From a virus, in the IMG/VR virus record IMGVR_UViG_3300025122_000013, positions 1 to 64,000 of that record: DNA of 64,000 bases; one strand, given 5' to 3'. The translations under genes were made by a program, and so were the position numbers. Position 1 is the stretch's first letter. Every line of letters begins with the position of its first letter. The notes below the pieces were generated by a model, which worked only from the letters and a program-made list of their open reading frames with translations, was not told the origin of the DNA and made no database searches. This document shows, piece after piece, positions 3,911-39,518 of this stretch.

Positions 3911-5086
3911 CTAGCCTTCTGGATCAATTAATTCATCATCAATAGAATCTACTAATGCACTTACCTCAACATATGAATTAACATCTACATCTAAATCATC
4001 ATTATTCATACTTTTGACCATGACCTTTTCCAAAAGGTCATCTATATAATGGGAATACTCTGGATTATTCATTATCTCATTAAACTTAGGTTTATGAAAC
4101 TTCTTTTCAATTATACACTCACCTGTACCAGCATCTACAACAGACAGAGTCTTCCACGATCCTGTTCCAGAAATAGATACCTCATTTCCGTCTACTATCT
4201 CTGGACCATGTTTTCTCAAAATATCGAATACTTGTTCATGCTCTTTTATACCGACTCCGAAGTGTATCTCAAAGTCAATCTTTCTAAATGGTGCCGCAAC
4301 CTTGTTCTTAATTGTCTTTGCAGAAACATGAATACCGATTACGTCATCGCCATCTTTTATCTGTTGCCCTGCACCGAGCTTAATTCTTGTAGAAGCATGA
4401 AACGGAATTGCCTTTCCGCCGGGCGTCGTCGTAGGATCACCAAACATGACACCAATTTTTGTTCTAGTCTGATTCAAGATCACAAATAAGACGCTCTGAT
4501 TTGCAATAACCCCCGTGATCTTTCGCATGCCCTTGGAGATCGCTCGGGCCTGCAGGCCAATTGATTCCTTGTCATAATCACCCAGAAGCTCTGCCTTAGG
4601 TGATGAGGCTGCCACAGAATCCCACACAATAGTAACTGGTATATCCTTATCCATTGCCTTTGCTTTCATAATGGTTGCTTCAGCAATAGACAAAACTTCT
4701 TCTGTGCAGTGTGTGTCAACATAGACAAAGCGCCTTGAAACATCAACACCAAGCATTCCTAAATTTTCAACAGATGTGGCATTCTCTGTGTCGATATACA
4801 CAACAATTCCACCCATCTGTTGTGTAGTCCTAGCGATCTGCGTTGCTATATGTGACTTTCCAATTGACGGTGGGCCAAAGATCTCTACTATTCTTCCTTC
4901 AGGAAGACCTCCACCTCTTCTATTAGAACAGATATAATCAAGTAATCTTGACCCTGTAGAAATCCATCGCTTTACATGTGTTGGAGATTCATCATATGCA
5001 AGATTGTAAGCAATCCTGCTACCGTGTTCCTTGTTGAGTGACTGAATAAGATCAGACGTAAAATCTTCTGTTCCTTTTGACGACAT
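3911..5086 (-). CDS. uvsX: RecA/UvsX-like recombinase
   Basis: The 391-residue protein is a strand-exchange ATPase. Walker A is GPPSIGKS (71-78), an unusual variant of the GPESSGKT type. DTEN (100-103) supplies the catalytic Glu equivalent to RecA Glu96. VTIVWDSVAA (151-160) is Walker B. A TPGGKAIPFHAS segment matches the RecA DNA-binding loop 2 region. It would act with the gp32-like protein and the SbcD-SbcC fusion in recombination-dependent replication. A candidate promoter and a hairpin lie directly upstream, so it may start its own transcript with the exonuclease and helicase. The acidic C-terminus resembles that of other RecA-family proteins. Confidence 0.9.
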   Translation of the reverse strand: MSSKGTEDFTSDLIQSLNKEHGSRIAYNLAYDESPTHVKRWISTGSRLLDYICSNRRGGGLPEGRIVEIFGPPSIGKSHIATQIARTTQQMGGIVVYIDTENATSVENLGMLGVDVSRRFVYVDTHCTEEVLSIAEATIMKAKAMDKDIPVTIVWDSVAASSPKAELLGDYDKESIGLQARAISKGMRKITGVIANQSVLFVILNQTRTKIGVMFGDPTTTPGGKAIPFHASTRIKLGAGQQIKDGDDVIGIHVSAKTIKNKVAAPFRKIDFEIHFGVGIKEHEQVFDILRKHGPEIVDGNEVSISGTGSWKTLSVVDAGTGECIIEKKFHKPKFNEIMNNPEYSHYIDDLLEKVMVKSMNNDDLDVDVNSYVEVSALVDSIDDELIDPEG

Positions 5087-5179: not shown

Positions 5180-5974
5180 TTAACTATCGTCAGACATCAA
5201 GTCAGCAAAGGCGTCATCTATGCTGCTATATCCTGATGCAGGTACAGTAGACTCAGAAGTACTAGTATCTGAATTTGACGAACTGTCGTCCTTGTCACTA
5301 CTCTCTGTGAGAGCTTCATCATCATTCAGCCAGTCATTTATAATCTTTGTGAGCTCATCACTAGTCTTGCATTGATACATTTCATCTAGATCTGGAATCT
5401 CAGAGACCCAAGTCTTTACCTGATTATTGTCATCTGAAAGCTTTGTTTGCTTTCCTCTTGGCCTGACCTCTGTCATGGCCCATCGCTTTCCAGGCTGCTT
5501 AGAGCAGACGACCTTGATATCTCTCCCATCTACTAGATCTGTGATATCTCCATAGTCCTCATCAAGCATGAGCCCAAGAAGTGTCTGGTAGACCATCTTT
5601 CCAAAACCCCAGATTTGAACACCCTTATCTTCCTCTCCTCGTACAATAACTGGAGCATATGTCCTCATCTTCGGATATAGCTTCTTAGCCAGCTCATACG
5701 ACTCTTTTGTACCTTCTTCACGAAGCTTAGTGATAAGATCTTGAATTGGGTCCGGATCTCCAAACTGATAGGGAGCTAAAAGTCCCCTGTTAGTTCCAAT
5801 ATTATAATAGAACCACCTTTCCTTAAAGGGTTGTCCATCATTGTTGGGGAATGAAAGCAAACGAACTGTATGTTCTTCACCCTCAACAGGCCTCCATGTG
5901 GATGACCTATTTGTATTATTTCCGCTTAGCCTCTCAAGCTTTTTACGGATAGCATCAAAATCAATATTTGCCAT
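5180..5974 (-). CDS. Single-stranded DNA-binding protein, T4 gp32-like
   Basis: The 264-residue protein has the gp32 layout. A basic N-terminal stretch (about 1-25) fits the cooperativity region. The core begins with WRPVEGEEHTVRLL. The C-terminal tail, about 210-264, is rich in Asp and Ser and ends DDAFADLMSDDS, the acidic tail by which gp32-type proteins recruit replication partners. I do not see the CX..C zinc set of T4 gp32, as in many distant homologues. It has its own upstream promoter candidate, a strong AAGGAG ribosome site and a hairpin behind it, consistent with high expression of a stoichiometric DNA-coating protein. Confidence 0.85.
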   Translation of the reverse strand: MANIDFDAIRKKLERLSGNNTNRSSTWRPVEGEEHTVRLLSFPNNDGQPFKERWFYYNIGTNRGLLAPYQFGDPDPIQDLITKLREEGTKESYELAKKLYPKMRTYAPVIVRGEEDKGVQIWGFGKMVYQTLLGLMLDEDYGDITDLVDGRDIKVVCSKQPGKRWAMTEVRPRGKQTKLSDDNNQVKTWVSEIPDLDEMYQCKTSDELTKIINDWLNDDEALTESSDKDDSSSNSDTSTSESTVPASGYSSIDDAFADLMSDDS

Positions 5975-6056: not shown

Positions 6057-6284
6057 TTATTTCTTTTTCTTCTTTCTTATCTTCTTCTTTCTTATCTTCT
6101 TTAAGCTAGTCGGATCTGCAAGCTTTGCTCCTCCGAATGCGTCTCCTGCAGCCTTCCACGCTGGCCTTCTTTTTCTTCCAAATGTTGGTGTAGACATTCC
6201 AAGTGGCAGATTAGGACCGCCCCCAAGATTTGCAACTACGTTTTGCTCATCTATGTCGTCTTCATGATGATCTTTATCATCTAC
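6057..6284 (-). CDS. Minus-one-frame extension of the 524-codon ORF (75 codons)
   Basis: This stretch would otherwise be an unexplained gap of about 300 bases. It is open in the frame reached by a -1 shift on the A11 tract at 6285-6295. The product begins VDDKDHHEDDID, contains GGGPNLPLGMSTPTFG and ends in a lysine-rich tail with a doubled KKIRK-type unit before TAA at 6059-6057. No plausible start with a ribosome site precedes it; the only internal ATG would give about 44 residues. It could therefore be made by ribosomal or transcriptional slippage as a C-terminal extension, or the A-tract length in the assembly may be off by one. Function unknown. Confidence 0.6.
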   Translation of the reverse strand, partial: VDDKDHHEDDIDEQNVVANLGGGPNLPLGMSTPTFGRKRRPAWKAAGDAFGGAKLADPTSLKKIRKKKIRKKKKK

Positions 6285-7855
6285 TTTTTTTTTTTGCTCT
6301 CTAGAATTCTTTCAATTCCCTGACGAATAAGATTTCTTAAAGCCTTCTCTTCTAGAGATCTTGCCTGATAATTAACAATTCCACCATCTGCTTTATATGC
6401 GACAGAAAAATCATCATAGTCATCTAACCTGTCAAAGACTGATTCAGCCTCTTGCTTCGTAACAATAGTGGGAACATTTCTTGACTTATACCCAACAGGC
6501 TTATCCTCATGATACGAGCTATAGTCAGGATAAATTGACTCTCTAATAAATCTTTTTAATTCTGATAGGGCAGGTGAGACGCCATTGCTTTGCATCGGGA
6601 TCGTGTTTAGTGCTGTTATATCAGTTGGAAGACCACCTGCTTCTGCAGATAATAGGTTTAAAAAGCTGTCCTTATCCATGTCGAGCACACCTTTTTTAAC
6701 GAGCTGAGTAGGTGCATCTTCTGGTTCTGCATGTAGTGCCCTATAGAACTCTCCCAACCTTCTAAATGATCTTACTGGGCTAAAAATTACTCCTGCTAGA
6801 CCGGGTCCGCCTTCCTCTGCTAACTGTTCTAAACTTTCAGCTGCTTCAGGGCTACTAGTTCTCATTATTTCGAATACATCCTCAACTACCCCTGCTCCGC
6901 TTGCTGCCATGTCAAAAAGAAATCTCTCTACAGGAACTATGTCTGCTACAAAGCCTCCTATACCAGTAATAAGATTTGCTAAAGGAACAGTGACAAGTTC
7001 CTCAGGAACTGCAGCCTGTGGTCCGAGCATTCCAGCAGCTGTCGTTACGACTGAGTCCATAGACTGAATCAAGAGTATGAAAAATGACTTGAGTCTATCT
7101 AAAAATTGATCAAATACAGCCTTGAGCTGAACTGTGTCAGATCCCTGAATAGAAGCTATTACCTGCTGCCACGCACCTTCATCCTGTTCAGATAGCGCCT
7201 CAAAAAATGCATTTTCTGGAATATCTAAGAGACTAATCAGCTCATCAGAGTCACTTTTCAACTTCATAACAGAATACGTTCCAAGAAGGCCTCCGAGAAT
7301 AACATCAATATATGGTATAGATAGACCAAGAGATGTAAGTCCCTTTTTGGCACCCTTTACCAGCATTGTGTCACTAATCCCTTCTTCCATTCTGTGATCT
7401 AATAGGCTATATCTACTTTTAAAAACCGGCGTATTTTCATCAAATTCCATTTTCTCTTTTAACCCCTTTTGCTTAGGACGCATTATCCTAAAGTTATTTG
7501 GAAGCTTTCTGCTTCTAATTGGTTCGATATCCCAGGAATAAATATCACCCACTTCCTCTTCTTGCTCAGGAAACATAGGCATATATTCTACTGCCTTATC
7601 ATAATCATCATATCCAGTATTTACGCGTGCAAGGTATGATGAGAATGTTGAATCTGCTCCTTGAGTTGGTCTTCCAGTTCTAAAGTCAGGAAGCTTTCCG
7701 CGACCAATCTTTTGCTTATAGTCGTCGCCGCCACCAATGGCACCGGCGACAGGTATCCCGATCCCCCTGCCAGACCACACACCCTTTTCAGGAATGTTGT
7801 CCATAGATGTTGCGTATAGCTTTTTAAACTCTTTAGATGTGAGACGTGGCATCAT
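6281..7855 (-). CDS. Unknown protein, possibly virion-associated, with slippery 3' end
   Basis: I do not recognise a family for this 524-residue protein. The N-terminal 170 residues are charged and Gly/Pro-rich. The middle part (about 180-370) has several hydrophobic stretches, including SIPYIDVILGGLLGTYSVM and a region rich in Gly, Ala and Val, which could be amphipathic or membrane-associated. The C-terminus carries short helices LKRFIRESI and LRNLIRQGI, a pattern also seen in small head-cluster proteins of this phage. The frame ends in four Lys codons made by an A11 run and then TAG, while the -1 frame stays open for 75 more codons. It lies between the HD-domain gene and ssb, so a replication-side or early role is as possible as a structural one. 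Confidence 0.6.
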   Translation of the reverse strand: MMPRLTSKEFKKLYATSMDNIPEKGVWSGRGIGIPVAGAIGGGDDYKQKIGRGKLPDFRTGRPTQGADSTFSSYLARVNTGYDDYDKAVEYMPMFPEQEEEVGDIYSWDIEPIRSRKLPNNFRIMRPKQKGLKEKMEFDENTPVFKSRYSLLDHRMEEGISDTMLVKGAKKGLTSLGLSIPYIDVILGGLLGTYSVMKLKSDSDELISLLDIPENAFFEALSEQDEGAWQQVIASIQGSDTVQLKAVFDQFLDRLKSFFILLIQSMDSVVTTAAGMLGPQAAVPEELVTVPLANLITGIGGFVADIVPVERFLFDMAASGAGVVEDVFEIMRTSSPEAAESLEQLAEEGGPGLAGVIFSPVRSFRRLGEFYRALHAEPEDAPTQLVKKGVLDMDKDSFLNLLSAEAGGLPTDITALNTIPMQSNGVSPALSELKRFIRESIYPDYSSYHEDKPVGYKSRNVPTIVTKQEAESVFDRLDDYDDFSVAYKADGGIVNYQARSLEEKALRNLIRQGIERILESKKKK

Positions 7856-7885: not shown

Positions 7886-8458
7886 CTATTTTTCACTATG
7901 AATGACAAATGTTTTTGCTTGCTGGAGAATTATTGCCAAGGTTGGCTCGTGTCCCACATAAAATCTATTTTCCTCGAAATGAGATCCCTGAGATAGCTGA
8001 ATAGCTAACCACTCATCAGATGTAAGGACTATTCCAAAGTTTTGTAAAATACATAGCGTCCTGTGAGAAACTGACATTCTATTAAGATCCTCATTAAACT
8101 TATACAGCTTTCCTAGTTTTTCTCTGTGCCAACTAGAGTCTTCTTCTATAAAATTATCTGTGGTTAGATCTCCTATTTTTCCAATGTCATGCAATAGACC
8201 TGTCTTTAATATAGACGACACAGAAAGGTCCAAGTTATATGCATCATTTAGCTTTCTCATAGTCGCAGTTACCTTTAGAGCATGATCAACAAGACCTCCG
8301 GGATAGCATCCGTATTGATCAACTCTTATTGATGCAGGGCAGGCTAGAATCCTCTCTCCAAGTTCATCGATACAATTATCTAAATTGTCGTCAGAAAGTC
8401 TCTTGCAAAGAGATTCAAATTTTCCCCAATTATCTTTTATTTTTTCAAAATTATTCAT
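7886..8458 (-). CDS. HD-domain phosphohydrolase
   Basis: The 190-residue protein carries the metal-dependent HD signature: His59 in LVDHALKVT, then His90-Asp91 in LLHDIGKIGDL, and later conserved-looking His residues in VSHRTL and GHEPT. HD-domain enzymes hydrolyse phosphate esters, typically nucleotides. In a phage, dNTP pool control or removal of a signalling nucleotide would be logical, but the substrate cannot be read from the sequence. It lies directly behind the DNA polymerase gene (18 nt gap) and probably shares its transcript. An AGAGAGAC stretch precedes the ATG. Confidence 0.75.
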   Translation of the reverse strand: MNNFEKIKDNWGKFESLCKRLSDDNLDNCIDELGERILACPASIRVDQYGCYPGGLVDHALKVTATMRKLNDAYNLDLSVSSILKTGLLHDIGKIGDLTTDNFIEEDSSWHREKLGKLYKFNEDLNRMSVSHRTLCILQNFGIVLTSDEWLAIQLSQGSHFEENRFYVGHEPTLAIILQQAKTFVIHSEK

Positions 8459-13160: not shown

Positions 13161-16100
13161 TCATTCATCATTAACCCATGTCTTAGGATCAGCATACTCA
13201 TATGGAGATTCAGGATTATTAGATGCTGCGCCTGTGCCTCCGTGTCTCGTGTATGAGTCCTCTGATGCAGCACCATCGTCTGGGTAGGGATCGCCGGCAA
13301 CATACCTCATTATCTCACCAACATTGTAGACTGGTGCCCTGTTGTACCCAGAGTGATCGAGGCCTGGGGGAAGATCGTGTATTGGTGTGAATGCTATGTC
13401 AACCTTGACACCCATAGGAGCTCTTGAATTCCAGTCAATTTCCCAGTTAAAAGACTCATCAAGCCAGTCAAATTCTAGCCTTGTTAGGACACCAGCAAGT
13501 CCCCTTCCCGCTGTGCTTGCAAATGCCTTTGTAATCGGATTGTTATTCTCATCCATGAATCTGGCAGAATCTGACATCCATATGTTTAGTTGGTCTGTAG
13601 GAATACCAGATGCAGTTGCTCCTTCGTCTACTAGGGCTTGTGCGGTTCCCTTCCCTAAAGCCTCACCTGATATTGTTGGCATGACTGTTGAATTAAACAA
13701 AAGATTAGGATCAGGAAGAAGATCACTGTGATCAACCATAAATAGCTTTGCCATTAAATGAATGGGAGCTCCAAGATCTATCACAGTTACAGCATACGAC
13801 GTCTTCTGTGTTGGGTTTCCCCTTCTCTTTGGTCCTTTGAATGTTGGAGATGAATGTGCTGCGCTCTTTCCTTCTAGTGCCACAGATGATCTAAATATCA
13901 CCATGGCTTTTAGTGGTCTAGTAACCCTATACTCTGAGCTATTATCTGGATGCTGTACAACATTTCCACCATCAAGTGAGGCAACCTTATATAATTTTCC
14001 AGTTGTCGCCTTAAGATAGACTATCTCTGAGGGTTTATATCCCGTGAGCCAGTCCAGTGGTAGTCCTGTTCCAGCTGTACCTGCTGATAATACAGACGTT
14101 CCAGTTGCCAATGCACCTGCAACCGTGGGAGATAGCGGAATGATGTTTGTAGACCTATCTGGATCCTGCATCCTAGAGACTATTGCACTTATACCTAGCG
14201 GATTTGCAAATCCATTAACAAGAAGCTGAGATAGTAATGCCCTAGCAATTCTTGTATTATTGGGTCCGTCTCCTAGCAATGTCAGCGGCGACGAAAATAA
14301 TGCACTAAAAGCCTTTGTTCCAAATGGCTCAGCTCGGAGCTTTGACTTAACAGCTATTGCAACTGGAACAGGGGGTGTCGCGCTTACAGCGGCATCCTCT
14401 CCCTGAACTACAGGCATCACATCTTCATCTCCTATACCAAACATCCGCGCTAGGTTAAACTTAGAATAATTTCCCTTTATAACATCTCCAACTCTCATGC
14501 GTATTACTGGAGACGCTCCAAGAATCTGACTAAACGGCTGGGTGAATACAGATTCCGTAGCATCTGATCCAACAGTTACCTTAGTTCCCTTTGTCCAGGA
14601 TGGATACACTAGTGTTGTAAGCTTGTTGATCTTCCACCACATCTCATTAAAGTCATCTTTTGATGTCGCAACTACATAAAAAGACAGTGCAATACTTCGA
14701 GTTGTATTCTTATATACCTGAACCTCATCCAACCGACCGTATCCTGATGTTCTAACATATGATGGAGTGAAGCTGTCTGTTAGTCTTGTCAGAAATGCGT
14801 GGAATGAGACTATCTCATTTGTTCTAAGATCATGAAAATAGAATGGAACATACTCTGCATCTAGTGTATTTTCCATCCTCTCTACTATTTCTCCTGGAAT
14901 TCTAGCATTAGGCCCTTCAGCAGAAGCATCTATGTATGTTTTCTTTATCAAGTTAGATCCCATCATCCCCTTTAGCGGATTAGTCCCATTAACTAATGTT
15001 CCCATATCCTCTGCTGCCCTCATCACATTTCTTGGAATCATGTATAGCGCAGGTGTAGAGCTAGTCCTCCATGCTAATGACAAAGATGTAAGACCGTCCT
15101 GTGTTCTACTCTTGGATATTCTAGTTCCTGGGCCGTCTGCAAGAGAATCTATATTCCACGGACCGACTGAATGATTTGAGTTTATTCCGGGCATTCCGCC
15201 ATTCATCTTTAGTGATACATCTCCTATTGTTGCTGCAACATTAAGAATATTAAGAATGCCTGACATAGAGATTGAATTAAGTATGTTTGATAGTGAACTT
15301 GATGATGATGACGTGACACTTCCATTCATTATGTCACTATTTACTGTGGCAAAATATTCAAAGCTTCTTAAGACACTTCTTGCAACTGCTAGCCAAAATC
15401 CTGGTGCCTCCTGCACCTGCTGGTATTTTCCTATCTCGTCTGCCTGAGATGGATCTCCTCCAACAGACCCGTCGAATAAGACCAAAAATCCCTGATTTAC
15501 AGCATCTGAATAAGGATACGTTGTGGGTGTTAAAACAGTATTTCTAATTAGCTCAAACTTTGCCTTAGTTGCTATTATTGTTGACTGACCTGCAAAGTAT
15601 GGACCGTTTCCTAATCTAGCTCTCTTATTAACCATGTTGCTTATCTGACCAAATGTCTCCTGTGCAACAACAAGCATCGCAGCTATAGCAGCTGCTGCCT
15701 GTGCTATTAAGATATCTTGATTAAACTCAGATGAAAACTGTGTGTCAGACGTGTTGGTTGTACCAAAAGAGTATGTATATTTTGTGCTTGATAGATCGTC
15801 CTGAGTTAAGAAGCTTCCCTTTCCAGCTCTTGTAGACATTCCAGTCTTTGGAAATTGAGGAGTGTTATACGCTGATCTAGCTCTAAATAGCTCTGGGTCT
15901 ATTTGGCGCATGGGTGTGTTAGGGTTATCTAGATTGTCATCCTTATCAAAATCAAAGGTATCTGGGTTAGAGCTGTCGCCAGGTGTAACTGAACTGTCCC
16001 AGCCTGCCATCTTTAGTAAGAGAGATGAGCCCACATCCTTAAGATTATCATTGATCATCTTAATTGAATTTTTATCAAATTTTCCTATCTGTGACTGAGA

Positions 16101-16808
16101 TGTTGACGTTCCTGCGTCATTATTTCCAGCATCAAAGCTAGTCGTATCTGTTGGAACTGGTGCGTATGCCTTAAAGTCTACATTTGAGGGACTGAATCTA
16201 TTGTTATTGGTTATAAAGCTTTCAACAGCCTCTTGGGCTAGTGACTCAGGGGTGTATGAAGTTGAATCTACCTCTGTGATTCCACTTTGTGGAATGGCAT
16301 CTTCTCCATCAATGCTGCTTAGAAGGGTATTTCCAGATCGAAGCGGGCCCCCATTAACAACCTCTGTTCCGTCGTACTGCATCTTGGGACTCACCTTTCC
16401 AGTCTTATCAAGAATCTTATCAAGATCTTCACCAAACATACCACTATTTGAGTACGATGACATTACACTCCCAAGTGTGTCTCCCTGAGTTATAAAAGGC
16501 TTTGTTACGCCTGTATTTTCTGCTAGAACAATGCTGTCACCACGATTTCCTGAAGCTGCCTCTTTGTTTCCTCCTTCTACAGTAAATAAATTATCTGACA
16601 TATCTACTATGAATTTTGCATAATCGCCTAGCAGTCCTATTGCCTCCACGTCAAGATCTACGAGAGGCTGTCCTGTTCCCGGATCTATTCCTAGATCATC
16701 TCCCACCTTTGCAAGACCGTCAAAATCTTCGTCCTCAACTGTGTACGTTATCTTATCAGATGTCGCTCCAATTGATCTTAAAAAATCTTTTAATTTTTCT
16801 CTTGCCAT
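13161..16808 (-). CDS. Very large tail/baseplate structural protein
   Basis: This 1215-residue protein has a Ser/Asp/Gly-rich N-terminal third of low complexity and a folded central part. Around residues 660-760 it has YFHDLRTNEIVSFHAF, then LTDSF, SGYGRLDEVQVYKNT and LTTLVYPSW. I recognise this arrangement from a conserved baseplate/tail protein of T4-like marine phages (the VrlC-like group), where an FHAFL ... YGR ... YKNT ... LYP pattern recurs. The C-terminus includes an Asp/Trp-rich stretch. It overlaps the preceding small gene by 19 nt. A structural role in the tail tip or baseplate is likely; the exact position in the particle is unknown. Confidence 0.6.
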   Translation of the reverse strand: MAREKLKDFLRSIGATSDKITYTVEDEDFDGLAKVGDDLGIDPGTGQPLVDLDVEAIGLLGDYAKFIVDMSDNLFTVEGGNKEAASGNRGDSIVLAENTGVTKPFITQGDTLGSVMSSYSNSGMFGEDLDKILDKTGKVSPKMQYDGTEVVNGGPLRSGNTLLSSIDGEDAIPQSGITEVDSTSYTPESLAQEAVESFITNNNRFSPSNVDFKAYAPVPTDTTSFDAGNNDAGTSTSQSQIGKFDKNSIKMINDNLKDVGSSLLLKMAGWDSSVTPGDSSNPDTFDFDKDDNLDNPNTPMRQIDPELFRARSAYNTPQFPKTGMSTRAGKGSFLTQDDLSSTKYTYSFGTTNTSDTQFSSEFNQDILIAQAAAAIAAMLVVAQETFGQISNMVNKRARLGNGPYFAGQSTIIATKAKFELIRNTVLTPTTYPYSDAVNQGFLVLFDGSVGGDPSQADEIGKYQQVQEAPGFWLAVARSVLRSFEYFATVNSDIMNGSVTSSSSSSLSNILNSISMSGILNILNVAATIGDVSLKMNGGMPGINSNHSVGPWNIDSLADGPGTRISKSRTQDGLTSLSLAWRTSSTPALYMIPRNVMRAAEDMGTLVNGTNPLKGMMGSNLIKKTYIDASAEGPNARIPGEIVERMENTLDAEYVPFYFHDLRTNEIVSFHAFLTRLTDSFTPSYVRTSGYGRLDEVQVYKNTTRSIALSFYVVATSKDDFNEMWWKINKLTTLVYPSWTKGTKVTVGSDATESVFTQPFSQILGASPVIRMRVGDVIKGNYSKFNLARMFGIGDEDVMPVVQGEDAAVSATPPVPVAIAVKSKLRAEPFGTKAFSALFSSPLTLLGDGPNNTRIARALLSQLLVNGFANPLGISAIVSRMQDPDRSTNIIPLSPTVAGALATGTSVLSAGTAGTGLPLDWLTGYKPSEIVYLKATTGKLYKVASLDGGNVVQHPDNSSEYRVTRPLKAMVIFRSSVALEGKSAAHSSPTFKGPKRRGNPTQKTSYAVTVIDLGAPIHLMAKLFMVDHSDLLPDPNLLFNSTVMPTISGEALGKGTAQALVDEGATASGIPTDQLNIWMSDSARFMDENNNPITKAFASTAGRGLAGVLTRLEFDWLDESFNWEIDWNSRAPMGVKVDIAFTPIHDLPPGLDHSGYNRAPVYNVGEIMRYVAGDPYPDDGAASEDSYTRHGGTGAASNNPESPYEYADPKTWVNDE

Positions 16809-17040: not shown

Positions 17041-19623
17041 CTATTCTACATTACCAAATGTGACTATTGTCTCTCCTGGTGATATTCCCAGGACCTGCTC
17101 TAATTTTTCTCTACCTATCTGTATCGTTAGTTGAACAGGCACCTCTGATGTCTGTGCGGCTGTGTTTGCATCTGACAATAGCTCTTTTATAGATAGCAGG
17201 TAGCTTGCAGACTCTACACTTTGCTCTAATACAGACTCAGCCATCTCCTCGCCTGCTCTCCTTGTTAGTTCAAGAATGTTTGCTATTGTGCTAGAACTTT
17301 CCTGTGCCTGCTCAGAGTTTATAGCAAGGACATTTGCAACCGTTCCACCAGGTTCTTCCTCTATAGTCTCATCATCTCCGACAAGAAGTTGGAATATACC
17401 CTGATTACTTGTGCGTATTTCCTCGATATGACTGGTTGCTGCTGCGCCTAGCCCGCCAGTAGCGGCTCGTCTACCCTCACCGGCTGCTGCCTCCGCCTGT
17501 GCCGCTGTTGCCTCCTCTGTGGCTTTTCTTTGAGCATCTGCTGAGCTAGCAAGCTGTGACCATGTTGTTGTACCACCAGAAACAAAATCCCTTATCTCTT
17601 CTGAGCTCGCTGGAAGCATCTCTCTAACACTGGATATTGTGTCTTCGGTTATCGCACCCCCTTCTGACTTTATCTGCTCTAGAAGGGCCTTTGCGGTCTC
17701 CTGATCTGCCATGGTCTGTCTCTCTGCAGATGCAGCCTGGCTATTGAATATAAGCTGTAACTCTTCCTCCCAGTCCTCTCCTAGCTTCATTCTCTCTGCC
17801 AGTGATTTTCTCTCTTCCTTAGTTAAGTCTGAGTAGCTTGCTCCTAGACGGCCTATCTGCTTTGCCATCTCATTGTACATGGTTCCTGACGTTTTGACCT
17901 GTTTCTTGAGTTCCTTTGTAGCGATATCTGTCATATTGCTAAATGAATTCTGAGCGCCAGCATCTATCCTATCAAACGAGGCATCAAAACCCTCTCTCAT
18001 CATTCTAGAGACCTCAGACTCAGACTTACCTGCTAGGCCAGAATCTTTCCACAACTCCTTCATTCGTTTGATCATGGCATCGAATTTAGACTCGATACGT
18101 CCGTAGGCTTCAGTGAATCCGTCCACCATGGTATTAGGAATCTCACCATTGACACCTGCTGCTTCTGCCATAGTGGTCGCTGAGGTTGAAGCCATCTCTG
18201 TCAATTCGGCGGCTATATGTGATGTGGATTGTTCAACAGACAGTGCAGCATCTTGCATGCCAGACGTGAGATCTCTTTCAACCATGGTACGCAGTGCTTC
18301 TCCTGATAGGTGAGCAGCATCCCTGATCATGTCTATGTCATCTGTGACCGCTGCGAGTGAGTCCTTTGGATCCATATCTTCGGATGCGGCGGCTAGGTCC
18401 TCCATACCACTTATTGCAGCCCGTGGATCTAGAAGCCTCTCAACAGACTCAACATCCTTAAGCTGCAGCTGAGACTGAATAAATCTCTTCTCATAGAGGG
18501 TTAGCGTGTCTACAGACTTTCCTGCAGCGAGAAAGCTCTCCCTCATGTCCCTTAGGAACTTGTCCTGATCAGTGTTTGCAGACTCCATCATGGCCATTGC
18601 ATCCATCTGAAGACCGAATACAGAGGTTAGATTGCTAACTGTTCCAGCTGCCTGATCAAACCCCTGGAATTTTCCAAGCATGCTCCCAAGGTCCTGGTAG
18701 TCTATCCCTATCTGCAATAGCGCTGTAGAGATTCTAGCTGCCTCTTGTACATTAACATTTCCAAAGTTTTGAGTGTCAGCTATTATTCCCTCTATATTCT
18801 TTGATATCAGCTTCGATGATATTCCAGTTCGTGCCTCAATCCCCTTTGCTGCAGCAGCGGCTTCCCTGAGCATGTCAGTGCCAGCCTTTCCTGTGAGGCT
18901 TATCTGACGCTGAACGAATGTTCCAATCTGATCCTGAGATAGTCCTAGACCCTTTCCAAAGACAGCCATCTCCCTGACAGTCTCTTCTGTGGCATCTCGT
19001 GTCATTCTTAGTGAGTTTATCGGATCATATGCGACCTTATTAAAGTACGACATATAATCTTCCAGATTATTAAATGCCATCTGTATTGGCTGATTCTGGA
19101 TCCTGAATGCTGTCTCCCCGACATTCGTATAATCTTCGTACGTGGCTCTAACAATTTTTCTCATCTGGTTGGATAATTCGTGTGCACCAACGTTTATATC
19201 TTCTCCAAGACCTCCAAACTGTCGCTGTATTTCGCTTACAGCCCTTCTATTCTCATCGTCGACATACGATGAGATCGACTTCCCAGCTCCATCCCACGTT
19301 TTCTCAATATTTGATAAAAGGCCCTGTGACGCAGCGCCTACCGTGGCCATTCCCTCTGCTGCCTCTGATGCTCCGGCTGCGAAGCCTCCGACTCCATCCT
19401 GGAGGTCCTCTGAGCCTGTCCTAAGATTAGAACCAGCCTCTCTATATGCCGCTGATATCTCTGCGTCAACTGACGCCATATCTAAAGCAGCACCCTCTGC
19501 CTTTTGCTGTATAAGACCGTGTATTCGAACCTGCTCTAAGAGAGATTCATTAGCAAGCTTTATAGATTCATTAACTGCATCTACTAGACGTTTTTGCTCT
19601 TGTAATTCTCGTGAAGTAGCCAC
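17041..19623 (-). CDS. Tail tape measure protein
   Basis: The 860-residue protein is almost entirely helical and rich in Ala, Glu, Gln and Ser, with heptad-like spacing, and has the size and position of a tape measure protein. A phrase FQGFDQAAGTVSNL (about 310-325) resembles a conserved segment in tape measure proteins of T4-like marine phages. At about 0.15 nm per residue it would specify a tail near 130 nm. The start is GTG at 19623 behind GGAGG (6 nt spacing). It follows the overlapping chaperone-like pair, the usual order in tailed phages. No peptidoglycan hydrolase domain is evident. Confidence 0.8.
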   Translation of the reverse strand: MATSRELQEQKRLVDAVNESIKLANESLLEQVRIHGLIQQKAEGAALDMASVDAEISAAYREAGSNLRTGSEDLQDGVGGFAAGASEAAEGMATVGAASQGLLSNIEKTWDGAGKSISSYVDDENRRAVSEIQRQFGGLGEDINVGAHELSNQMRKIVRATYEDYTNVGETAFRIQNQPIQMAFNNLEDYMSYFNKVAYDPINSLRMTRDATEETVREMAVFGKGLGLSQDQIGTFVQRQISLTGKAGTDMLREAAAAAKGIEARTGISSKLISKNIEGIIADTQNFGNVNVQEAARISTALLQIGIDYQDLGSMLGKFQGFDQAAGTVSNLTSVFGLQMDAMAMMESANTDQDKFLRDMRESFLAAGKSVDTLTLYEKRFIQSQLQLKDVESVERLLDPRAAISGMEDLAAASEDMDPKDSLAAVTDDIDMIRDAAHLSGEALRTMVERDLTSGMQDAALSVEQSTSHIAAELTEMASTSATTMAEAAGVNGEIPNTMVDGFTEAYGRIESKFDAMIKRMKELWKDSGLAGKSESEVSRMMREGFDASFDRIDAGAQNSFSNMTDIATKELKKQVKTSGTMYNEMAKQIGRLGASYSDLTKEERKSLAERMKLGEDWEEELQLIFNSQAASAERQTMADQETAKALLEQIKSEGGAITEDTISSVREMLPASSEEIRDFVSGGTTTWSQLASSADAQRKATEEATAAQAEAAAGEGRRAATGGLGAAATSHIEEIRTSNQGIFQLLVGDDETIEEEPGGTVANVLAINSEQAQESSSTIANILELTRRAGEEMAESVLEQSVESASYLLSIKELLSDANTAAQTSEVPVQLTIQIGREKLEQVLGISPGETIVTFGNVE

Positions 19624-21386: not shown

Positions 21387-24300
21387 CTATGCATTTTGAA
21401 ACGCATCTCCTGCATTTGTAACAACAAAGTCAAGTGCTATAAATTCTGCCGTACGTGTAGGCTGCAAGAATATCTTACCCCTTAGGGTGTTATTCTCAAT
21501 ATCAGCCTGCGTTGTTGTTGTTGCATCGATTACAACCTTGTATCTATCAACACCACTTCTCTCCTGCACGCTCTGCAATATTGGCGTAACAAGAGCATTA
21601 AACCTATCAAGAGTCTCCTGTCTATTTGGTTCAAATAGCATAGTATTTGCAACAGCTCTAACAGATCTTCTCACGTTTATGAGAAGCCTTCTAACATTGA
21701 CCCTGTCTAGTGAAGAGTCTGTTGCAAGAAGAGTCTTTTGACCAAAGACCATCAATCCTGTTCCTGGGAATGCTGTGATCGGATTTATATCTGCATCATA
21801 GAGTGTATCCATATTTGCCTTGCTAACAGGAACCTTGGCATACAAGGAGTCCTTTAGCGCGCCTCTTGTAAATCCTGCCGGTGCAAACCATGGGTACCCA
21901 ATTGAATCGTTTATTGCAAATGCGCCCAATACTGCGACTGAGGGCGGTGCCTGAACATTTGTTTTTGTCGTGGGATCTGTCATGATAACATCAGGAAAAT
22001 ACGCCGCAGCAAAGGAGGAATTTAATCCTCTATTCTTAAAGGCTGCCACCGTGTAGGCTACACTTGGATTAGAGACTGATGATGTTACAACTGTATTTAT
22101 CTCATCTCTCTCCTCTATGTCCATTATATAAAGTGCATCAAATCTATCTTCAATAGCATCTATTGCGTATGTTGTAACAGAAGAATGCCTTATTCCAGGT
22201 ATAACTAAGAGATTTATATCTACGTCTGCCTTTGTTGCCATCATGTCGACGGCCTTTCTATATGCAGCTACTGTGGGACCATTTGTTCCCCCTTGATTTG
22301 ATTCATCATCCATCTCTCTTTTAACTGCTGCATTTGCAAGAGCCACTCTATCCCTATTGAACATGTCTGTTCCGTCAAATCCTCCCTGAAGGACGAACGT
22401 GAACTTTCCAAACCTTCTATTTCCCTGAGTCTTTAGATCCGAGACCTTTAGTGCTCTAGTCTTATTTGACTCATTTGCAGTTATGGATCCTTTTCTCACG
22501 TAAGATGCGCTAACCCACTCGTTAACATCCGCTATAGTGTCTGATCCTGTTCTAACCTTAATTCTCTCAAGAGAGAATAGATTATTATTAAATCTATCAC
22601 AGTCTAATACTGTTCCTCCTGAATCTGCTACTCCAGGATTATTTCCAACAGAAAATTTTCTGTTAGAGACTGCGAAATCTGGGAAATATTTTACTCTAGA
22701 TCTCCATGTATTATCTTGAACAGCAGAAAGATTGGGCTTTGAAACTGATACCTTTCTAGAAAACTGACATCCCCAATAGAAAGCTGAATTTGTCTTCTTA
22801 TTGGGAGATGTTCCTACTGCTACACTTTCTCTAAACTGAACTGGCGGCGTTACAGCTCTTCTATATGAAATAGCACCTTGCCCCTGAAAGCGCGGGTTGC
22901 TTGTGGCATTACCAACTGTAGACAATATGCTGCTTCCAGATGTGACAAGGTGACTAAGACCTCTAAATCCTAGCGGAAGCGAGTCCTGTGGAACCTCTCC
23001 TGCCTTGAGCCCAGCACTCTGTTCTATCCTAATGTAATTTGACATGACAGGGTGATTTCCCTTGACAACTAACTTTTGTGATGCTGTTGCTTGATCAAAG
23101 TCAAAATACGTATTTTGATCCCCAATGACACGAGCTATAAACTTATCACTAGAAGGATCAAGTGAAAGACCTCTATAGGACTCTAGAGGAATCTTCTCTT
23201 CATCTGTGTCATCAAACGCTCTTACAACAAGATCAAAGGTTCCATATAGATATGAGTCAACCAATGACGGCTTTATATTCTCAATTGATATCTTAAAGAG
23301 ATCATTACTAAATTCTCCATCTGATATTGAGAATATTCTGAATAGACTGTGCCTTGTTCCTGCATAGTCTTGTGATATTACGGCAGGAGATCGCGGTGCC
23401 CTGAATCTATCCTCAAACGACTCATAGTCTGGAACTGATGTATTTCCTGTATCTCTAGCTAATGAGCTAGTTAGAATAAACGCTATATCTTCCTGTACAC
23501 CAGCTGATGTATAGCCTTGGAATCCCGGATGTATGATTCCTGATCCTGTTGCCTTGCAGAATGCTGGGTGGATGTCGTATCTAGCATATAGCAGGTGACC
23601 CTTCTTCTCCATCTCAAGCGGATCTGTGTTAAGAACGTTTCCAAAGTAAGCTGGAGACTCTAGGTCAAATGACGCTGTAATTATATTTGGACCGTCACCT
23701 GAATTCTTGTGACCGTTTATAAGCATTACGAAATTCTGAGTCGCAAGATTCATTGTTCCTGTCATCGCGCCGCCGTATGCGAAGCTGGCGGGACCTATCA
23801 TTCCGTTTCCAGCTGATGCTGTAACAGCACCAGTTCCAGGAGTATTGCTGGCCTGACCTGATCCAGACAGCGACAGTATAACCCCGGACGGAGCCATGAG
23901 GACACCGCGAATAATAGGGTGAGCTCCTGTTCCGGCTAAAATTGAAGCGCCTTGTATTCCGGCATCTCTAAGCAGTGAAGACCCCGCTGAGTCAGAAAGG
24001 AAACATCCAAGGAAGTATGTCCTACCCAGGTCACTGTACGGGCTAGTTGCGTAAGAATTTCTTGCTACAACACCTCTCTCTGATACCTGCTGTGATCCAA
24101 CGACAAATCCTGCGCTTGTAACCTTTCCTGTGCTAGTACTTCTCTTCTTACAATCTCCTGCTCCAAGTACCCTTATATATGTTAGAGCCTGTGCTGTCTT
24201 TAAAAACTGACTAACTGCGAGTGGGCCAAATTTTTCACCGTCTGTGTTTCCAAATAGTTGTGCAAAATTTCTATAACTGGCTATCGTAACTGGGACAAAA

Positions 24301-24425
24301 GCAGGTCCCTGATTAGCAGTTCCCACAACACCCGCAGGGGTTCCCACAGGACCTGCAACTGAGGGCGCTGAAAGGTCTATTTCAGTTGCTGTAACACCGG
24401 CACTGTTAAAAACTGTCTCAGCCAT
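21387..24425 (-). CDS. Tail sheath protein, second copy in transcript order
   Basis: The 1012-residue protein starts with the sheath pattern GVTATEIDLSAPS, PAGVVGTANQGPAFVPVT, then FGPLAVSQFL and YIRVLGAG. The C-terminus has SLDRVNVRRLL, then DIENNTLRGKIFLQPTR and IALDFVVTNAG, matching the conserved C-terminal sheath domain of gp18-type proteins. It is far longer than T4 gp18 (659 residues), with a large insertion between these two ends. It is a clear paralogue of the protein encoded at 24461-27643. An AGGAG site and ATG at 24425 define the start. Confidence 0.92.
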   Translation of the reverse strand: MAETVFNSAGVTATEIDLSAPSVAGPVGTPAGVVGTANQGPAFVPVTIASYRNFAQLFGNTDGEKFGPLAVSQFLKTAQALTYIRVLGAGDCKKRSTSTGKVTSAGFVVGSQQVSERGVVARNSYATSPYSDLGRTYFLGCFLSDSAGSSLLRDAGIQGASILAGTGAHPIIRGVLMAPSGVILSLSGSGQASNTPGTGAVTASAGNGMIGPASFAYGGAMTGTMNLATQNFVMLINGHKNSGDGPNIITASFDLESPAYFGNVLNTDPLEMEKKGHLLYARYDIHPAFCKATGSGIIHPGFQGYTSAGVQEDIAFILTSSLARDTGNTSVPDYESFEDRFRAPRSPAVISQDYAGTRHSLFRIFSISDGEFSNDLFKISIENIKPSLVDSYLYGTFDLVVRAFDDTDEEKIPLESYRGLSLDPSSDKFIARVIGDQNTYFDFDQATASQKLVVKGNHPVMSNYIRIEQSAGLKAGEVPQDSLPLGFRGLSHLVTSGSSILSTVGNATSNPRFQGQGAISYRRAVTPPVQFRESVAVGTSPNKKTNSAFYWGCQFSRKVSVSKPNLSAVQDNTWRSRVKYFPDFAVSNRKFSVGNNPGVADSGGTVLDCDRFNNNLFSLERIKVRTGSDTIADVNEWVSASYVRKGSITANESNKTRALKVSDLKTQGNRRFGKFTFVLQGGFDGTDMFNRDRVALANAAVKREMDDESNQGGTNGPTVAAYRKAVDMMATKADVDINLLVIPGIRHSSVTTYAIDAIEDRFDALYIMDIEERDEINTVVTSSVSNPSVAYTVAAFKNRGLNSSFAAAYFPDVIMTDPTTKTNVQAPPSVAVLGAFAINDSIGYPWFAPAGFTRGALKDSLYAKVPVSKANMDTLYDADINPITAFPGTGLMVFGQKTLLATDSSLDRVNVRRLLINVRRSVRAVANTMLFEPNRQETLDRFNALVTPILQSVQERSGVDRYKVVIDATTTTQADIENNTLRGKIFLQPTRTAEFIALDFVVTNAGDAFQNA

Positions 24426-24460: not shown

Positions 24461-27400
24461 TTACTCAAAACTTACTCCAGCATTAGTGATGATAAAGTCT
24501 ATAGCTATAAACTCTACAGCTCTTGTAGGAACGACAACTATCCTTCCATTAAGAATGTTATTTTCCACATCCTCTTGAGTATTATTGCTGGAATCCATCA
24601 CAACCTTGAATTGATCAATTCCCTGCTGACTCTGAACCAGAGATAACAACGGCGTCGCCTGAGAAACGAACCTAGCTCTTGTCTCAGGTGTGTTTTGCTC
24701 AAAGACTATCTTACTTGCTACATCGACAATTATTCTCTTAACCTCTAGAAGCATCCTTCTCACATTAACCCTGTCAAGTGATGTTCTTGCCTGCTGTAGT
24801 GTCTTCTGTCCGAATATTACAAATCCCGCACGTGGGAATGTGGCAATTGGATTAATTTTAGCGTCATAAAGTTCATCTCTATCTGCCTGGTTTAGGCGAA
24901 CCTTTACGTTTGTTACAAAATCAAGTGAACCTCTGTTAAACCCAGCTGGAGCAAACCATGGGTAGGCAACATTATCACTAAACCCTATGGCACCAATAAC
25001 TGCAACAGATGCTGGTACATCAACTAACTGATTGTTAATTGGATCATTAATGGTAACATCTGGGAAATATGCTGCAGCATAATTGTTATCTAGTGCTCTA
25101 GATTCAAGATCTTCTAGTGTCTTGCTTACACTTGGGAGCCCGCCTCCCTCAAATACCCTGTTTCCATCAGAGTTATACCCGGGAATCTCCATTATATAGA
25201 ATCCTTTTCCATAATCCTCAAGCTGATCGAGAACATAGTCTGTTAGGGCTGAATCTCTGATTCCTGGAATTGCTATGATGTTTGCTCGAGATGACATTGG
25301 ATCTGTAAGAATTTTTGCTGCAGTCCTGTATGATGCTATGATATTGTTTGTCTTTCCTATCCCAAATGCATTTTCATTAGTATCTAGACCAATATCAAGC
25401 GTTGCTACAGCCTTTCCTCCAGTGTCTCCCGAAGATGCTCTATCATTCATTCTTGCCATATCTTTATCAAGAATATTAACACCATCAAATCCACCATACA
25501 TCATGTTTGTAAACTTTGAGTAATCTACAAACTTATTAAAGTATAGCGATGAAGTCATGGCTAGGAGTGTAGCAAATGTAACTCGCTTTGTTATATACCC
25601 ATCGTTAATAGCGTATGTTGAAAGATCTGGGAAGCCATCTCTAATATAAGCCGTCTCTAGCATGTGCTCCTTGACAGTTCCTGTTATTGCATTGTTTGCT
25701 GTGGTCCCAAGGTTATCTAGACCAGAAGACTGCTGTACTGCATTTTTAAGAGCAACACGCGCCAACGTAAACTTATTACAATTAAATTCATCTGCTCCTG
25801 AACCTGTGACGAGTGTGTCTAGCTTCTCTATACCTAAGAATTTTGAGTAGGATCTAAATAAACTATTTACCTCAGTTGAAGCATTTGAGTTTAAAATGGC
25901 ATTTGATAATGAGCCAGTTCTTGGAATGCTATCAAACTTGCATCCCCAGTAGTATCTTGAATCTGCTATCTCCTCAGATCCTTGTTGACCTACGAATGCA
26001 GGAGAGAGCTTAACACTTCCTCGTGTACACTTAAACCTAAGCGGTACTGGAGGAAGAATTGACATACTTAAAACAAGAGCTGTTCCGCCCAGTTCAGACG
26101 AACCAGGCTTTGAGAAAGTTAATCTTCCAGGACCAAGCGTTCCGTTTGCTGCAGAACCTCTACTAGCGCCTCCAGGATTAGAGTATGTCCCTCTAATGCT
26201 TCCAGAATAATCTGTTAGTGTGTCATTGGTCTTGACGACAGGAAGACCTCTGAATCCAAATGGCATCGCATCTTCTGGAACTTTTTTCTGTTCCATTTCT
26301 GTGCTTAGTATGACTCTGATCCTAGACGACTTGTTTGGATACTTACCCTTAACGAGCAATCTTCTCTCAGACTCTAGCTCTGCATCAAAGTTATAGTATG
26401 CCTTAAAATCACCTATTTTTTTCGATATAAAGTTAGGATCATTTGGATTCAGAGTACATAGCGGATATCTCTCAAGAACCTTCGGCGATGTGTCAGAGTC
26501 ATCAAATCCTCTAACCTCAACAGTAAATGTTCCATACGGATCCTTGGGATTTGTTGGCTTCTTTAGATTTGATATAGAAATCTTGTACTTCTCATTAGCA
26601 ACAGATCCATCTGATATAGTCTCGAAGTAAAATAAATTCCACTCTTTCCTTCCATACGGCTGTGATATGAAGTATGTTGATCTAGGTGTCGTGTACCTGG
26701 TGTCAAATCTACCAAATCCATCTCTATATGTTAGGCCAGATACTCCTGATGCAGCGGATCCTGAAGCTGATCCAGAACAAATAGCTATTGATCTATTAGA
26801 TGTGGCAACTGTCATGATCTCATCTGCTACAGGAAAATCAGCATAAAGAAGATGCTGTTCTGATTCAAACCTCTCTGGATCAGTATTAAGTACATTTCCA
26901 AAATAATTTTCATCTGTTGGATTAAGAGATGCTGTAAATACTTTTACGTTAGAATATCCATCTGCTGACCAGTTTGCTGCCGTAGATGAGAGGACGAGCT
27001 TAAATGTCTTGTAAAGCTTATCTGATGAGGTTGGGTTGACATTTGCCATGTCATCTGATACATTAGTCGGTGAATAGGTCTGATTATAATCTAGCACCTC
27101 AAATCTTGTTCCTGTAGCAGAAAAAAGCATACCGCGAACAATATTAAAGCCCTGATCCAGATCCTGGCCTTTAAAGCTATTGTTTGAAGAAAATATCGGA
27201 TATCCAACAGACTCATTAGAAGATGTTACGTGTCTAGCACATAAAAATTGTACACATCCTTTATGGCCTCCCAGTGTGGCATCTGATGAAACTGCCGTCC
27301 CTATTACCTTAAATCCTGCGTGTCTTACTATTCCTGCGACCCTAGTGTTCTCTATGTCAGTTGCTGTCTCATTTGCTCCTGCGCCCAATACCCTAACATA

Positions 27401-27643
27401 TGTTGCTGCAGTTCTATTCTTCAAGAACTCCCTTACAGCATATGGGCCGAACATCTTAGAGTTGAGGCTTCCAAATTTCTTTTCAAAATCTGAATATGAT
27501 CCAACAGTCACTGGAACGAATGCAGGCCCCATCTCAGATGTCCCTGCAACACCTGCTGGTACTCCAACGATCTCAGACACTCTCTGCGAGAGGTCGATTT
27601 CGTTTTCAAAGAATCCAGGTGATCTAAACGTTTGTTCAGCCAT
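24461..27643 (-). CDS. Tail sheath protein, first copy in transcript order
   Basis: I chose the ATG at 27643, because AGGAG lies 8 nt before it; two TTG codons in frame upstream are less likely. The about 1060-residue product has SPGFFENEIDLSQ, GVPAGVAGTSEMGPAFVPVT, YVRVLGAG and at the end SLDRVNVRRMLLEVKR, DVENNILNGRIVVVPTR and IAIDFIITNAG. These ends match those of the neighbouring sheath gene closely, while the central part differs much more. The pair is best explained by tandem duplication. Both may be in the particle, or one may form a special ring. Confidence 0.92.
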   Translation of the reverse strand: MAEQTFRSPGFFENEIDLSQRVSEIVGVPAGVAGTSEMGPAFVPVTVGSYSDFEKKFGSLNSKMFGPYAVREFLKNRTAATYVRVLGAGANETATDIENTRVAGIVRHAGFKVIGTAVSSDATLGGHKGCVQFLCARHVTSSNESVGYPIFSSNNSFKGQDLDQGFNIVRGMLFSATGTRFEVLDYNQTYSPTNVSDDMANVNPTSSDKLYKTFKLVLSSTAANWSADGYSNVKVFTASLNPTDENYFGNVLNTDPERFESEQHLLYADFPVADEIMTVATSNRSIAICSGSASGSAASGVSGLTYRDGFGRFDTRYTTPRSTYFISQPYGRKEWNLFYFETISDGSVANEKYKISISNLKKPTNPKDPYGTFTVEVRGFDDSDTSPKVLERYPLCTLNPNDPNFISKKIGDFKAYYNFDAELESERRLLVKGKYPNKSSRIRVILSTEMEQKKVPEDAMPFGFRGLPVVKTNDTLTDYSGSIRGTYSNPGGASRGSAANGTLGPGRLTFSKPGSSELGGTALVLSMSILPPVPLRFKCTRGSVKLSPAFVGQQGSEEIADSRYYWGCKFDSIPRTGSLSNAILNSNASTEVNSLFRSYSKFLGIEKLDTLVTGSGADEFNCNKFTLARVALKNAVQQSSGLDNLGTTANNAITGTVKEHMLETAYIRDGFPDLSTYAINDGYITKRVTFATLLAMTSSLYFNKFVDYSKFTNMMYGGFDGVNILDKDMARMNDRASSGDTGGKAVATLDIGLDTNENAFGIGKTNNIIASYRTAAKILTDPMSSRANIIAIPGIRDSALTDYVLDQLEDYGKGFYIMEIPGYNSDGNRVFEGGGLPSVSKTLEDLESRALDNNYAAAYFPDVTINDPINNQLVDVPASVAVIGAIGFSDNVAYPWFAPAGFNRGSLDFVTNVKVRLNQADRDELYDAKINPIATFPRAGFVIFGQKTLQQARTSLDRVNVRRMLLEVKRIIVDVASKIVFEQNTPETRARFVSQATPLLSLVQSQQGIDQFKVVMDSSNNTQEDVENNILNGRIVVVPTRAVEFIAIDFIITNAGVSFE

Positions 27644-27693
27644 CAACAAATCTCCTGTGCTTGTCTCTACAGTTATAACTATCGCTCAAACGA

Positions 27694-38426: not shown

Positions 38427-38900
38427 TTAAGATCTTTTTGCTGTCGTAGCGAACGCTAAATCTGCCCATTTTTGTGCAGACTCACCGAATAATTCCTGCG
38501 GGTCTGATTTAGATGCTACCACAGCTGCTACATCTCCGGATGCAGCAGTTGGTAGAGATGATCCCCCGGGTCCTGGCCTCTCAGCTCCTGCCTGTTCTTG
38601 CAGTGTCGTCATTGCAGTATCAGCCAGTATCGACGATAAGACTGGATCGGCTGTCATACTTCTTGTCGTTTCTCTTATATTTTTTTCAAAATTAGGATTT
38701 GGAATTTCATCTTTTTGTGAAGTCTTATTATAAACTATATTATCAAGCCCAGCTCTTCTATTCACGCTCTGGCTTCTAGATTCGGATCTTACTGATTCTG
38801 ATATCTGTACCTCTCTATGCTCTCCGATTCCTTCGCTTAATATCTCTATTAGGCATTCCTTTACTATTCCCTTTAATTTACTTCTAGCAGCTCTAGACAT
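38427..38900 (-). CDS. Small head-cluster protein of unknown function
   Basis: The ATG at 38900 is preferred to the in-frame TTG in front of it; the ribosome site is weak. The 157-residue product starts with a basic helix (ARSKLKGIVKECLIEILSEG) followed by a polar, Ser-rich, probably disordered region and a short helical end. It precedes the 83-residue gene. No family is recognised; a minor core or scaffold component is possible. Confidence 0.6.
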   Translation of the reverse strand: MSRAARSKLKGIVKECLIEILSEGIGEHREVQISESVRSESRSQSVNRRAGLDNIVYNKTSQKDEIPNPNFEKNIRETTRSMTADPVLSSILADTAMTTLQEQAGAERPGPGGSSLPTAASGDVAAVVASKSDPQELFGESAQKWADLAFATTAKRS

Positions 38901-38909
38901 CAAATTTAC

Positions 38910-39518
38910 CTACCACGACAATATATCATTAAAAATTCTATCTATTTTATCTGTTTTGGTAAAATTTTTATCAACATCACCGGGGTTTATAGTCTTTCCT
39001 TCACTTATCATAAATGCTCCAGGTGTAGAGGGTTCACTAACCATATCAAAACAAATCAATTGAAAATCTTCCTGGACAACCTGCCTATCTCCGTCGTTTC
39101 TAGTAGAGCCCACACCTCTAGAAGAAATTCCAAGTGTTACACCAGATTCAACGAGACTTTGAAGTATTTGTCCAGCGGGTGTATTAAGTAGCTCAACATG
39201 CCCAACAACAGAATCACCCTCTATGTGTGCTTCTCGGACTATATGTGAAACATTTTTCAGTTCTACCACCGAGGAATCCGGATGATCACATTCACCGAGC
39301 GCTCGATTCTCTTTAATAAATTTTTGATAATTTAGCATCTCTCGCTCTAATATAGATCTGGGATAAACCCTTCCATTCTGATTTAAAGTGTCACATTTTT
39401 GTAATACACCTCTTAGAACTATCTTTCCATCGTTTTTTTCACGAGACTCTTTAATCATATTAGATGTATAAGATAGAGGAGTCCACTCAGTCAAAAGTTT
39501 TAATTTAAAATCACTCAT
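38910..39518 (-). CDS. Prohead protease, T4 gp21-like
   Basis: The 202-residue protein has the S77-type prohead protease pattern. LRGVLQKCDTLNQNGRVYP is the substrate-cleft strand. GECDHPDS (76-82) carries the candidate His79. GISSRGVG (130-137) carries the Ser nucleophile. A later FDMVSEPSTPGAF segment fits the third catalytic region. It would cut scaffold and capsid N-termini during maturation. It overlaps the 285-residue gene by 8 nt. Confidence 0.9.
   Translation of the reverse strand: MSDFKLKLLTEWTPLSYTSNMIKESREKNDGKIVLRGVLQKCDTLNQNGRVYPRSILEREMLNYQKFIKENRALGECDHPDSSVVELKNVSHIVREAHIEGDSVVGHVELLNTPAGQILQSLVESGVTLGISSRGVGSTRNDGDRQVVQEDFQLICFDMVSEPSTPGAFMISEGKTINPGDVDKNFTKTDKIDRIFNDILSW

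Follow-up and report, generated by a model that had tools for sequence, protein, structure and literature searches.

We analysed a window of 64,000 nucleotides, positions 1 to 64,000 of IMG/VR virus record IMGVR_UViG_3300025122_000013 (64,137 bases). The record encodes a myovirus with a T4-type portal, head protease, major head protein and terminase, two tail-sheath genes, a family-A polymerase, UvsX, DnaB, primase and RuvC-like genes, and is classified here as an uncultured far-T4-like myovirus. The closest cultured relatives by terminase and ssb are Flavobacterium phage immuto and Microcystis phage Mel-JY01; these nearest relatives and the related contigs point to a marine source. The tail-sheath genes are adjacent (21387-24425, 1012 aa; 24461-27649, 1062 aa), and known sheaths match their C-terminal parts only. 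In the major head protein (33454-35427) the family match lies mainly in residues 386-639, and the preceding part may carry a large insertion. Four segments of the structural region (13161-16808, 17041-19623, 55919-60064 and 60070-62811) encode proteins of 860-1381 aa with no PHROG match.

The gene studied here, designated gene X, lies on the minus strand between an upstream HD-domain phosphohydrolase-like gene (7886-8458, minus strand) and ssb (gp32-like; 5180-5974, minus strand), the next gene downstream. Its frame 0 comprises 524 codons (7855-6281) and ends AGC AAA AAA AAA AAG TAG (6296-6281), matching base for base the initial annotation, in which a 524-codon minus-strand frame closed on AGC, eleven A's, G and TAG. 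The 524-aa short form (6281-7855) has a Gly-rich conserved N-terminus, a variable helical middle and a conserved C-terminus ending KKKK*. The A11 tract (6285-6295, minus strand) is read in frame 0 as AAA AAA AAA AAG and contains the ribosomal heptamer A_AAA_AAG; the TAG stop (6281-6283, minus strand) stands immediately 3' of it. In the -1 frame, the sequence past the Lys run continues ...KKK VDDKDHHEDDIDEQNVVANLGGGPNLPLGMSTPTFGRKRRPAWKAAGDAFGGAKLADPTSLKKIRKKKIRKKKKK, starting GTA GAT GAT, for 75 residues to a TAA at 6059-6057 (extension at 6057-6284, minus strand), giving a predicted slip product of 599 aa. The extension consists of an acidic stretch, a GGGPxxPLG-type motif, an FGGAKLADP motif and a Lys-rich tail, and includes the peptide stretch NLPLGMSTPTFGR. 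It covers all except 82 of the 306 bases between the frame-0 TAG and the ssb start (5974).

The A11 is the one run of at least nine A's or T's in the 64-kb window, against 1.7 expected under a first-order model of the same sequence. It is not simply compositional, because 45% of Lys codons are AAA and A runs are avoided in the Lys-rich tail of the extension, where none exceeds five. Within the first 40 codons of the extension the sole in-frame start is an ATG at codon 30, with no ribosome site, as had been claimed when the locus was first described. An open frame of this length has a probability of about 0.012 by chance in sequence of the same composition, and the conservation of the frame in relatives makes a chance origin far less likely.

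Relatives were sought in IMG/VR by a protein scan (9 loci), an alignment scan (25) and a pattern matching the adjacent ssb (63 stretches); the first 9 loci had 46-100% identity to gene X (tblastn) and the rest had lower identity. The gene upstream of ssb was read in all stretches, yielding 19 distinguishable lineages with an A tract, a count that rests on sequence difference and does not number independent events; all relatives are metagenomic contigs, some of them possibly re-assemblies of one and the same sample. Every tract-bearing lineage has an uninterrupted run (A9 in 11, A10 in 4 and A11 in 4). The extension lies in the -1 frame in 16 of the 19, in frame 0 in 2 and in the +1 frame in 1. 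Alignment with homologues, which the initial annotation had proposed as a check, finds the downstream segment conserved in 18 further lineages, always at an A9-A11 run; its claim that a -1 slip or an extra A opens 75 further codons is thereby upheld, with the downstream part joined at the same kind of run in the relatives. The alternative it had offered, that the true tract is A12 and the gene a plain single one, fails for the window lineage; three contigs of the same type from IMG data sets with different numbers (L001, L002 and L007) also read A11.

Four arrangements were distinguished. Class A, with a -1 extension at the same junction, comprises 14 lineages including the window type; L049 is alike but needs +1. 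Class B keeps the tract with the extension in frame, in L022 (A10) and in the L024 group, where the run is A11 in three contigs and A9 in two and a substitution preserves the frame. In class D (the L058 group and L068) an A9 tract is relocated to inside the extension, which is again reached by -1. Class C is tract-free with the extension in frame and includes L020, L054 and L089, as well as a form of about 200 aa that holds the N-terminal and extension segments only (L048, L050, L057, L061, L066, L067 and L092); tract-free in-frame relatives (L048, L057, L061 and others) share the same C-domain. On a quick ssb tree, 3 changes account for presence or absence of the tract, and 7 are needed for the full class label. 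The frames of L049 and L022 may each reflect a one-base homopolymer assembly error, since each is a single contig. The motif G-x-I-x-G-[WY]-x-x-P-[LM]-G ... F-[FY]-G-G-x-x-L-x-[DN]-P ..., followed by a Lys-rich part, is present, with variation, in the extensions of all classes. In L006, near 4590-4600, the extension carries one G more than that of L009 (TTTGGGAAG in L006, TTTGGAAG in L009), which disrupts the shifted frame, as an assembly error or a real indel.

Searches of annotated phage records and plasmids by DNA and by protein returned no relative of gene X, nor any of the tract-free L057 form; a 31-residue match to Phage zth2-2 (E 0.1) was discarded as noise. A pattern scan of genome contigs gave no match, and the proteins encoded at the syntenic position in Flavobacterium phage immuto and in Microcystis phage Mel-JY01 bear no resemblance to X by eye.

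The extension evolves as coding sequence in its shifted frame: third codon positions are the most variable, and most informative pairs have a dN/dS of 0.10-0.39 (0.67 in the L005/L010 pair, which differs at only 15 sites). Independent translation was considered and rejected, most lineages having no start preceded by a Shine-Dalgarno (SD) sequence before the conserved core and five (L003, L005, L017, L027 and L076) having no ATG, GTG or TTG at all in the first 40 extension codons. The shifted frame of L017 encodes, from the first residues behind the Lys codons, a GDSL/SGNH hydrolase (PF13472, E 9e-16, above the curated cut-off), followed by the usual extension tail; L017 (4590-5660, plus strand), and likewise L016 and L056, carries a hydrolase in the shifted frame that lacks its own start codon. 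Proteins of this kind are cut short by gene callers, and the enzyme domain of L017 would be missed or mis-started.

The short C-terminus is also kept. The short-form stop falls 0-7 codons past the tract (median 2) in the 19 lineages, whereas stops elsewhere in that frame come after about 30 codons on average, and in class B it is the -1 frame that meets a stop 0-2 codons past the tract; this placement indicates that neither C-terminus is lost when the genomic phase differs. The related stretches total 636 kb and contain 44 A/T runs of at least nine; this tract accounts for 40 of the 44, a total that counts some lineages repeatedly, several stretches being near-identical contigs. The remaining runs are an in-frame A9 close to the polA start in L068 and, in the L058 lineage, a T9 within a stretch that has short frames and is apparently non-coding.

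What the aligned sequences show directly is the tract, an extension that is conserved in a shifted frame under purifying selection and has no independent start, and the keeping of both C-termini across phases. Because the extension is conserved at the protein level and the tract is retained across lineages, we regard the two as functional, parts of a single gene with two C-termini. Retention of at least nine A's in 19 related phage lineages marks the tract as a working device and no sequencing error. On these comparisons, the poly-A run almost certainly makes a polymerase or a ribosome slip, yielding a short protein and one longer by 75 residues; in principle the long form might be a by-product that the phage can do without.

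The reading we favour, at a probability of roughly 0.7, is that gene X is a two-product gene operating mainly by slippage of RNA polymerase at A11/T11. The polymerase would slip on the tract in a sizeable share of transcripts; faithful mRNA would give the 524-aa short form, and one added A would open the -1 frame and give the 599-aa form with its 75-residue acidic, Lys-rich C-tail. A ribosomal -1 shift on A_AAA_AAG within the tract may contribute. The mainly transcriptional nature of the slippage and the ratio of the products are what we infer beyond the alignments. The initial annotation had put forward a -1 slip or a transcriptional extra A: the joining of the two frames stands, and between polymerase and ribosome, on which the sequences do not decide, transcription is favoured, probably ranking first, with the ribosome or a mixture of the two second. 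The modular body, the phase flips, the hydrolase and the protease-like site go beyond what that annotation noted.

Several observations carry this preference. The tract occupies codon phase 0 in 8 lineages, phase 1 in 3 and phase 2 in 8, and in every phase its minimum is 9 A's, although 8, 7 or 6 would be enough for A_AAA_AAN; a run that never falls below nine in any phase favours the polymerase. So does the lack of any downstream structure that stands out (z -1.5 to +1.7 against shuffles, nothing beyond, with pseudoknots outside the model) and of a conserved SD upstream of the tract; Rfam gave no match above its cut-off. With the tract in all three phases and the extension in -1, 0 and +1, the +1 case being one contig, L049 adds a direction that would also favour the polymerase; the close precedent of tssM1 and its Yersinia homologue (PMC4256274) points the same way. 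Two counterpoints are that -1, the direction expected of ribosomal slippage, is the one required in 16 of 19 lineages, and that a good ribosomal heptamer A_AAA_AAN is found in every lineage.

Those counterpoints belong to the best-placed alternative, programmed -1 ribosomal frameshifting, in which tRNA-Lys slips at A_AAA_AAG/A in the tract and the long A run merely improves the slip. The canonical heptamer, the prevailing -1 requirement and a stop immediately past the slip codons all agree with it, and in-frame lineages would give the short form by -1, like dnaX. We nevertheless consider it unlikely, given runs of at least nine A's where 6-8 suffice, neither a conserved stem-loop nor an upstream SD, and the +1 requirement of L049; A-run families that work in two directions have been interpreted as transcriptional on that ground (PMC3711429). 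Phase variation, in which the tract would change length during DNA replication and toggle the extension between phage particles, has parallels in bacterial homopolymer tracts that act so, and phase does vary between some lineages. It is highly improbable, since about 10 lineages with at least two assembled contigs show no within-lineage phase difference; where run length differs (L019/L059, L024/L095) a substitution preserves the frame, and -1 is almost always the dominant state. An error in sequencing or assembly, or gene decay that left the extension as a pseudogene tail, has in its favour that homopolymers are error-prone and that the L006 contig carries its extra G. It is given next to no weight, being contradicted by the same layout in many contigs of 19 lineages, purifying selection in the shifted frame and the L017 hydrolase domain.

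Transcriptional slippage at gene X would have counterparts in other genes. In dnaX, Thermus thermophilus uses an A9 for transcriptional slippage and Escherichia coli an A_AAA_AAG for ribosomal frameshifting. As in gene X, two C-terminal forms diverge at an A run, and those of dnaX occur in a set ratio; in contrast, the default of X is usually the short form, and X has neither the SD nor the stem-loop of E. coli dnaX. In Citrobacter rodentium tssM1, an A11 gives transcriptional slippage of 20-25%, shown on mRNA, and in Yersinia pseudotuberculosis tssM3 transcriptional slippage yields the short form (PMC4256274). These genes share with X an A11 just ahead of a stop (tssM1), short and long C-terminal forms, predicted in the case of X, and a phase flip between homologues; they differ in being a bacterial secretion gene for another protein, with transcript heterogeneity measured. 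In E. coli cassettes, 63, 40 and 10% shifting was recorded at 11, 9 and 7 A's (PMC3711429). Programmed frameshifts of tailed phages, namely the tail chaperone G-GT and C-terminal Ig-like extensions of capsid proteins, are described as ribosomal (PMC5009743). They resemble X in making a minority C-terminal extension whose direction varies among relatives or which is in frame; unlike them, X does not belong to the tail chaperones or the major capsid proteins, and its extension matches nothing Ig-like. In the open PMC literature searched, the nearest statement on a phage concerns a single Campylobacter phage methyltransferase and is offered there as a guess (PMC2853527).

The gene X protein has no Pfam or PHROG match, and its relatives gave chance-level matches only in Pfam and PHROGs, except for the L017 hydrolase. 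The conserved N-terminal segment (residues 1-138; 7442-7855, minus strand), with VWSGRGIGIPVAGAIGGGDDYKQKIGRGK, is Gly-rich and predicted to be disordered. The central hydrophobic helical region (residues 187-378; 6722-7297, minus strand) is variable between lineages: the middle has another sequence in L006, is missing in L008 and L018, and is a separate downstream gene in L071 and L082. In L071 (4208-5725, minus strand), and likewise in L082, the helical middle is a gene in its own right, 510 codons long and placed between X and ssb, and another helical unit resembling it apparently lies ahead of it. AlphaFold2 models the body of X as a central helical bundle (block pLDDT about 73-88) with the remainder disordered (mean 49); compared with the PDB, the model had no match at E <0.001.

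Two candidate prohead-protease sites were identified as motif matches: S1, (RF)IRE|S (residues 437-440; 6536-6547, minus strand), with a predicted cut after E439, and S2, (R)ILE|S (residues 517-520; 6296-6307, minus strand), with a predicted cut after E519, which sits one residue ahead of the tract. The cleavage motif of T4 gp21 is L/I-X-E (PMC9026906), and the candidate enzyme is the T4-type head maturation protease of the window (PHROG 207; 38910-39518, minus strand). S1 is found in nearly all of 15 X proteins scanned, and 14 of 17 lineages have [LI]xE within the last 6 residues before the tract, against a shuffle mean of 1.0, the lineages sharing ancestry. The T4 internal head proteins IPI-III and Alt, cut by gp21 (PMC9026906), similarly combine variable cargo with conserved segments and L/I-X-E sites, and a gp21-type protease is likewise encoded in the window; the X sites, in contrast, lie near the C-terminus, X has no visible sequence relation to these proteins, and the cleavage and virion location of X are putative. 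We tentatively suggest that X might be a head-internal protein processed by the prohead protease, from which the slippage-added tail could be removed, a proposal somewhat more apt to fail than to hold. A further version is doubtful: slippage would give a fixed minority of capsid-internal X a C-tail behind a protease site, which in one lineage would include the GDSL/SGNH enzyme, setting the number of tail or cargo copies in the head, which the protease would then free. L-x-x-[FIL]-[IV]-[RK]-E-like amphipathic motifs recur in genes adjoining the head protease (38427-38903 and 39511-40368), and a similar one ends the gene that Mel-JY01 carries in the slot of X (L097 3818-3878), at its C-terminus; they are possible targeting or cleavage tags.

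If the doubtful version were true, tailed phages would be using transcriptional slippage to control the stoichiometry of cargo that is packaged or injected. The conserved recoding known from these phages is mainly ribosomal frameshifting, in tail and capsid genes. The gene X family presents a deeply conserved poly-A device in an uncharacterised phage protein, and its phase flips, tract-free in-frame relatives, relocated tract and enzyme behind the shift amount to a natural experiment that addresses why a virus retains two C-termini and how slippage by the polymerase and by the ribosome can be distinguished.
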